Below are positions 28,067-38,361 of a stretch of 64,000 nucleotides of DNA, in pieces. Position numbers and translations under genes: made by a program. Source of the DNA: Methanomassiliicoccales archaeon PtaU1.Bin124 (GTDB taxonomy: Archaea > Thermoplasmatota > Thermoplasmata > Methanomassiliicoccales > UBA472); contig MVRC01000015.1 in assembly GCA_002067865.1 (NCBI GenBank), positions 124,001 to 188,000 of the forward strand. Reading direction: 5' to 3'. The first letter of the stretch is position 1. Every line of letters starts with the position of its first letter. Under the pieces are notes generated by a model. The model ran no database searches. It was not told the DNA's origin and worked only from the letters and a program-made list of their open reading frames with translations.

Positions 28067-28087
28067 CATGTCTGGGATGTCCGCAAA

Positions 28088-28097
28088 CATTTAAAGC
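28088..28097 (+). promoter_or_regulatory. TATA box of tRNA-Arg
   Basis: CATTTAAAGC, 25-34 nt before the tRNA 5' end. Confidence 0.7.
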
Positions 28098-28160
28098 GCA
28101 GTGCCTATATCGAGCCCTAGCGGGCCCGTGGCTTAGCCTGGATATAGCACTGGCCTTCTA

Positions 28161-28186
28161 AGCCGCGCATTTCGTGCGGCGAAGCA
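28161..28186 (+). other. tRNA-Arg intron 1 (anticodon loop, position 37/38)
   Basis: 26 nt, canonical position; GCCGCGC/GTGCGGC hairpin with a 5-nt loop, consistent with a bulge-helix-bulge substrate. Confidence 0.85.
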
Positions 28187-28208
28187 AGCCAGTGGTCTCG
28201 GGTTCGAA

Positions 28209-28231
28209 ACTCCGCCTCGGCGGGGCGAAAT
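28209..28231 (+). other. tRNA-Arg intron 2 (T loop)
   Basis: 23 extra nucleotides inside the T loop between the conserved TTCGAA and T60. Removal gives a perfect T arm. Inner hairpin CTCCGC-CTCG-GCGGGG. Introns at this place are rare outside certain Crenarchaeota. Confidence 0.8.
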
Positions 28232-28301
28232 TCCCGACGGGCCCGCCACATGCAAACGTTAATAAACGCCCATTCAATCAGGGCAAAAAACTGGTGACAG
28301 G

Positions 28302-28409
28302 ATGAAGCGGAGTTCACGCGCCTGGAAGAAAAGAGGCAAGCAGCGCTGGAAATGGCGCAAGAAGAAGATGCGACGCCGTAAGCGGGCACAGAAGATGCGC
28401 AAGCGTTAA
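28302..28409 (+). CDS. rpl41e: 50S ribosomal protein L41e
   Basis: 35-residue protein, almost only Lys, Arg and Trp: it starts MKRSSRAWKKRGKQ and contains KWRKKKMRRRKRAQKMRKR, which lines up with the eukaryotic 25-residue L41e core. Single-helix ribosomal protein. Lies between tRNA-Arg and tRNA-Trp; the tRNA-Trp 5' end is 12 nt behind its stop, so they may share a transcript. Confidence 0.88.
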   Translation: MKRSSRAWKKRGKQRWKWRKKKMRRRKRAQKMRKR

Positions 28410-28421
28410 CGCTGATCAACT

Positions 28422-28593
28422 GGGGGTATGGGGTAATTCGGCATCCTCGCGGGCTCCAGTTAATTGGGTGTGATTGCTAACGGGTTTTCTGATCCGGTGA
28501 TGAGTAACTGGAGCGATGACCCATTAGTTCGCGCAGGGTAGCTCCCTGCGTGGAAGAAACCCGCTGATCTGGGTTCAAATCCCAGTGCCCCCA
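28422..28593 (+). tRNA. tRNA-Trp (anticodon CCA) with a 99-nt intron
   Basis: Acceptor GGGGGTA/TGCCCCC, D stem GGG/CCT, anticodon stem GCGGG/CCCGC, loop CTCCAG-A with anticodon CCA at 28456-28458, T stem CTGGG/CCCAG with loop TTCAAAT, discriminator A. The intron 28460-28558 is at position 37/38, as in other euryarchaeal tRNA-Trp genes. It carries box C/D guide elements (separate entry). Confidence 0.93.
28460..28558 (+). ncRNA. tRNA-Trp intron, box C/D methylation guide RNA
   Basis: Box D' CTGA at 28489-28492 and box C' GTGATGA at 28497-28503. The guide CGGGTTTT just before D' pairs with the 3' exon so that its fifth base upstream of the box faces position 39. CTGGAGC (28508-28514) is complementary to the anticodon loop GCTCCAG; counted from a variant box D ATGA at 28516, the fifth base faces C34. 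Methylation of 34 and 39 is the known job of this intron in Haloferax and Pyrococcus. Boxes C and D are weaker than C' and D'. Confidence 0.8.
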
Positions 28594-28606
28594 CTTTCCT
28601 ATTCAG

Positions 28607-38262: not shown

Positions 38263-38361
38263 CGCCGAGGGGGAGATTTGAACTCCCGAGTCCTTGCGGA
38301 CACAAGCTTGCTGGCGGATAAATTTCCAGGCTTGCGCCTTACCGGTCTGGGCCACCTCGGC
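38263..38361 (-). tRNA. tRNA-Ser (anticodon GGA) with a short intron
   Basis: Acceptor GCCGAGG/CCTCGGC with discriminator G, anticodon stem CAAGC/GCTTG, loop CTGGAA-A with anticodon GGA, long variable arm around GTCCGCAAGGAC (class II tRNA), T stem GGGAG/CTCCC. A 15-nt intron (ATTTATCCGCCAGCA) lies after position 37. It is close to the start of the ACT gene, which follows on the same strand. Confidence 0.93.

Follow-up and report, generated by a model that had tools for sequence, protein, structure and literature searches.

A tRNA-Arg(UCU) gene with a predicted T-loop intron beside the anticodon-loop intron in Methanomassiliicoccales

The tRNA-Arg(UCU) gene of Methanomassiliicoccales archaeon PtaU1.Bin124, located in a 64,000-nucleotide stretch of contig MVRC01000015.1 (the window), is interrupted twice, by a canonical intron in the anticodon loop and by a second one in the T loop. 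With a probability of about 95%, it is a functional gene, the only one found for this isoacceptor, whose introns would both be cut out by a single splicing endonuclease, EndA, and whose exons would be joined by the RtcB ligase. Intron boundaries, the geometry of the bulge–helix–bulge (BHB) motifs, covariation, intron-free relatives, uniqueness of the gene, and the encoded enzymes are all observed.

Structure of the tRNA-Arg(UCU) gene

The acceptor stem is formed by GGGCCCG (28122–28128) and CGGGCCC (28238–28244), followed by the discriminator G28245 and an encoded CCA (28246–28248), and the anticodon TCT (28157–28159) is carried by a stem of CTGGC and GCCAG (Table 1). The T stem, TCGGG paired with CCCGA, encloses 30 nucleotides, i.e., a 7-nt loop and exactly 23 extra nucleotides, which sit between T-loop positions 59 and 60 as judged from the sequence and the orthologues; after their removal the loop reads TTCGAAT. 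The preliminary description of the locus as a tRNA-Arg(UCU) gene with an anticodon-loop and a T-loop intron was correct to the base, and its claim that excision of the 23 bases restores a 5-bp T stem with a 7-nt loop is borne out by the sequence and by ARAGORN after the deletion.

Table 1. Features of the tRNA-Arg(UCU) locus and its neighbourhood (coordinates of the window)
Feature	Position	Strand	Basis
BRE/TATA-like promoter element AAACATTTAAA, 27–37 nt upstream of the tRNA	28085..28095	+	similar element upstream of orthologues
pre-tRNA-Arg(UCU) gene, encoded CCA, two introns	28122..28248	+	direct sequence reading, ARAGORN after insert removal
Exon 1: acceptor 5' strand, D arm, anticodon stem 5' strand, TCT, A37	28122..28160	+	sequence, BHB geometry
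Intron 1, 26 nt, canonical position 37/38	28161..28186	+	sequence; ARAGORN on the gene without intron 2
Exon 2: A38, anticodon stem 3' strand, variable loop, T stem 5' strand, T-loop TTCGAA	28187..28208	+	sequence
Intron 2, 23 nt, T-loop position 59/60	28209..28231	+	sequence, orthologues, shuffling, minimum-energy fold
Exon 3: T60, T stem 3' strand, acceptor 3' strand, G73, CCA	28232..28248	+	sequence
Intron 1 BHB: intron helix GCCGCGC/GTGCGGC; central helix CTTC/GAAG; bulges CAA, TAA	28162–28168/28174–28180; 28155–28158/28181–28184; 28159–28161, 28185–28187		register read from sequence
T-arm BHB	28198..28237	+	minimum-energy fold, shuffling and register analysis
T-arm BHB elements: T stem; central helix TTCG/CGAA; bulges AAA, ATT; intron 2 helix CTCCGC/GCGGGG	28198–28202/28233–28237; 28203–28206/28226–28229; 28207–28209, 28230–28232; 28210–28215/28220–28225		as above
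Ribosomal protein eL41 small ORF	28302..28409	+	syntenic in relatives
tRNA-Trp(CCA), 99-nt canonical-position intron with box C/D-like elements	28422..28594	+	syntenic in relatives

ARAGORN calls no tRNA at the unspliced locus, and the Rfam tRNA model reaches only 20.7 bits there against a threshold of 29, with the 3' end misplaced. With only the 23 nucleotides deleted, ARAGORN does report a tRNA-Arg(tct), to which it assigns an intron of 26 nt. Removal at the bulges thus gives a standard tRNA, as judged from this call and from the intron-free relatives with the loop TTCGAAT.

A second, intact tRNA-Arg(UCU) gene, which according to the preliminary description would speak against this reading, was found nowhere in the 2.2-Mb genome (99.8% complete), where the mature sequence has its closest match in the interrupted gene itself; the other Arg tRNAs found have the anticodons CCT, CCG, TCG, and GCG. 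Of the 17 matches that a loose pattern for T-loop BHBs gave in the genome, the window gene alone could be recognised as a tRNA with an interruption; two or more of the rest coincide with ordinary tRNA genes and do not represent such introns. tRNA-Leu(GAG) and tRNA-Leu(TAG), absent from the Rfam list and considered as further disrupted genes, were rejected, as both were found intact by BLAST. tRNA-Cys(GCA) was not located in this genome.

Bulge–helix–bulge motifs

At each intron there is a canonical BHB, with a central helix of 4 bp between 3-nt bulges, so that the earlier proposal of one BHB hairpin per intron holds for each of them by sequence, and for the T arm also by the minimum-energy fold. 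This fold reproduces the T-arm motif exactly, and the two 3-nt bulges, the 4-bp central helix, and the flanking helices are seen both in it and in a register analysis of 68 sequences. In the unconstrained fold of the anticodon arm, the intron helix and the stem are present and the central helix is only partly paired. The pre-tRNA as a whole folds 3.9 standard deviations better than its shuffles, and when the 23-nt insert was shuffled, a canonical BHB with an intron helix of at least 6 bp arose in 12 of 200,000 trials. Intron 1 belongs to the canonical 37/38 tRNA introns; intron 2 shares their BHB anatomy, but in its central helix the T-loop TTCG takes the place of anticodon nucleotides.

The transcript of 28122–28248 would thus carry two introns, and pairing of the conserved T-loop TTCG with the intronic CGAA would create the second canonical BHB. 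The two-lobed α'-type EndA, acting as a homodimer, would cut each intron at its BHB, and RtcB would join the exons into a standard tRNA with the T loop TTCGAAT. Cleavage, ligation, and the enzyme responsible are predicted here from the genome sequence, the cut at 59/60 because of the BHB geometry and the existence of intron-free relatives.

Splicing endonuclease and ligase

The genome encodes both a splicing endonuclease and the RtcB ligase. EndA, a protein of 350 amino acids with two lobes, is its single PF01974 protein; it is similar to the structures of the A. fulgidus α'2 and the M. kandleri endonucleases, and its catalytic Tyr, His, and Lys lie in the C-terminal lobe. One chain with two PF01974 lobes and C-terminal catalytic residues identifies it as an α'2-type enzyme, presumably a homodimer. 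The type of endonuclease, left between heterodimeric and α2 in the preliminary description, is therefore that of a single-chain, two-lobed enzyme, not of a heteromer. The extra loop of chain 3p1y, which we take to be the crenarchaea-specific loop (CSL), has no counterpart insertion in this EndA or in the 24 other Thermoplasmatota enzymes aligned with it, and the catalytic lobe accordingly lacks the loop of a broad-specificity EndA with CSL. PF01974 matches were present in all 112 genomes of the class searched, as single open frames of mostly about 290–420 amino acids, and matches of the same single-frame kind in 21 of 24 genomes of a second, phylum-wide set.

Removal of the T-loop intron by a different nuclease, or by a heteromeric enzyme with a second EndA subunit that escaped recognition, is very unlikely. 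Such an activity would be favoured by the usual association of broad specificity with heteromeric or ε2 enzymes (PMC6379350); against it stand a genome with a single PF01974 protein, the canonical BHB, which requires no relaxed specificity, and the matches of the 112 class genomes, which point to single-chain enzymes.

Conservation in Methanomassiliicoccales

Of the 61 orthologues read, 47 have the T-loop intron, in all six families of the order (f1–f6), with inserts of 19–31 nt at the same position; the named records carrying it include Methanomassiliicoccales archaeon RumEn M2, Methanomethylophilus sp. 1R26, and Methanoplasma MAGs. It is cleanly absent from the other 14, which belong to f1 (genus g7), f5, and f6 and have the loop exactly TTCGAAT. 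If the families are monophyletic, the intron would have been lost independently three times or more, or else gained several times at an identical site. The anticodon intron is missing from f4 and from all f6 genes read, most of which retain the T-loop intron. In a set of unique Arg and Lys sequences, 68 in all and chosen because their central helix is paired, pairing amounts to 90–94% at the first five pairs of the intron helix, with CG, GC, TA, AT, and TG pairs, and compensatory changes in this helix are found among the orthologues.

The gene order tRNA-Arg, eL41, tRNA-Trp is also conserved among relatives. Rfam sR3 has a weak match at 28466–28521, inside the long tRNA-Trp(CCA) intron. Elsewhere in the window, 38263–38361 on the minus strand was interpreted as tRNA-Ser(GGA), interrupted at the canonical position by an intron of ca. 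15 nt; ARAGORN mislabels this gene as tRNA-Ala.

The insert might instead persist after maturation and enlarge the T loop or form an extra arm. This is compatible with evidence drawn from sequence, yet it is less probable still than removal by another enzyme: the T loop of a tRNA has to dock with the D loop, the 14 relatives free of the insert show exactly TTCGAAT, and canonical splice bulges lie at both of its ends. Least likely of all is a decaying pseudogene or an assembly error with a chance hairpin in the T arm, which would agree with the silence of ARAGORN and Rfam at the locus but not with the sole isoacceptor found, the intactness of every tRNA stem, the insert kept across the order with compensatory changes, or the conserved promoter and synteny.

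T-loop and D-loop introns in Thermoplasmatota

The same T-loop intron with a canonical BHB occurs in another family of the class (f24, genus g76). In family f11, all 17 genes parsed (L156–L172) have a T-loop insert, in which TTCA faces GGAA or a similar sequence, although these genes were fetched because their matches ended at the T loop and are not a random sample. Their central helix has a recurrent A–G mismatch at the intron-proximal pair, a mismatch linked to A57 of the T loop.

A survey of genomes at least 90% complete found the 59/60 BHB pattern in 153 of 284 Thermoplasmatota genomes, compared with 6 for a reversed-pattern control; it is nearly missing from families f20–f23, f38, and f39. 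At the 30 pattern loci validated, deletion of the insert revealed a tRNA, of many isotypes, in 24 cases, against 2 of 30 in the unspliced form. In genomes of families f31 and f32 (G291–G302), the T-loop intron pattern occurs as many as seven times per genome, with similar sequences (AATGCATG.CTTG...), a similarity that suggests spread of the intron between tRNA genes.

tRNA-Lys(UUU) carries both D-loop and T-loop introns in seven genomes (G015, G135, G142, G001, G012, G126, G268; loci L247, L249–L251, L253, L255, L256). In G015 and G001 the T loop of tRNA-Lys(CUU) is interrupted as well, so both tRNA-Lys genes of G015 are disrupted by noncanonical introns. The tRNA-Lys(UUU) of PtaU1.Bin124 (L265) keeps the D-loop intron and lacks the T-loop one. 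In predicted folds, several T arms of the tRNA-Lys(UUU) genes with both introns look relaxed and not strictly BHB. D-loop inserts folding as BHB-like hairpins are seen in the tRNA-Lys(UUU) and the tRNA-Thr(CGU) (L102, named Cys by ARAGORN) of PtaU1.Bin124, and also in the Thr(CGU), Ala(CGC), and Leu(CAA) genes of G142 (L219, L240, L241).

Relation to known introns and meaning

The T-loop intron is a fresh instance of an already known intron type, since 59/60 is a listed noncanonical site, noncanonical introns being richest in Crenarchaeota and Nanoarchaeota (Yoshihisa 2014, PMC4090602). The known 59/60 introns, mainly crenarchaeal, share its position, the BHB splice sites, and possible co-occurrence with a 37/38 intron; here, unlike there, the host belongs to Thermoplasmatota, the intron is conserved order-wide, and the endonuclease is of the α' type without the crenarchaeal loop. 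Euryarchaeal tRNAs have been described as having one intron in the canonical position, linked to α4 and α2 enzymes (PMC4090602), and multi-intron genes are listed among Euryarchaeota only for Methanopyrus and Methanothermobacter (PMC4033280); Chan et al. mention three thermophilic methanogens (PMC3218864). Methanopyrus kandleri and Methanothermobacter thermautotrophicus likewise have tRNA genes with more than one intron (PMC4033280), but these cases were reported as isolated, not as a phylum-wide pattern, and the M. kandleri enzyme, unlike the one here, is (αβ)2. The remark in the preliminary description that a T-loop intron would be unusual in a euryarchaeon thus holds when set against the older literature on Euryarchaeota, but within this group the intron is a conserved feature of the order, and the phylum has T-loop introns in many of its genomes.

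No report of noncanonical introns in Methanomassiliicoccales was found in the literature searched. The tRNAscan-SE 2.0 catalogue comprises 673 noncanonical introns from 217 archaeal genomes (PMC8450103), and some of the introns reported here may already be among its entries. tRNAs with such introns can escape gene finders. Borrel et al. found M. luminyensis to be without any tRNA-Lys, attributed to a 17-kb gap (PMC4153887); if G015 is that species, noncanonical introns are a possible explanation.

The T-loop intron contradicts the published rule that euryarchaea with α4 or α2 enzymes have introns in the canonical position only. The older review has these euryarchaeal enzymes acting at that position alone (PMC4090602), which speaks against the proposed splicing at 59/60, although the T-arm motif here is itself strict. 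α'2 enzymes have been described as confined to the canonical BHB motif (PMC12397907); the T-arm BHB of the window obeys this motif rule, and therefore only the position rule is broken, whereas the tRNA-Lys(UUU) and f11 variants appear, in their predicted folds, to bend the motif rule as well. According to the prevailing view, introns outside 37/38 go together with heteromeric splicing endonucleases. It is rather likely, if well short of assured, that Thermoplasmatota make broad use of introns in the T loop (59/60) and the D loop, part of them with relaxed BHBs (the tRNA-Lys(UUU) T arm and the f11 A–G mismatch), all processed by a single-chain α'-type endonuclease without CSL. If this is true, heteromeric EndA is not required for noncanonical positions and perhaps not for relaxed BHBs. 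The order, and by the survey much of the phylum, has introns in the T loop and the D loop alongside a one-chain enzyme, which makes the rule directly testable.
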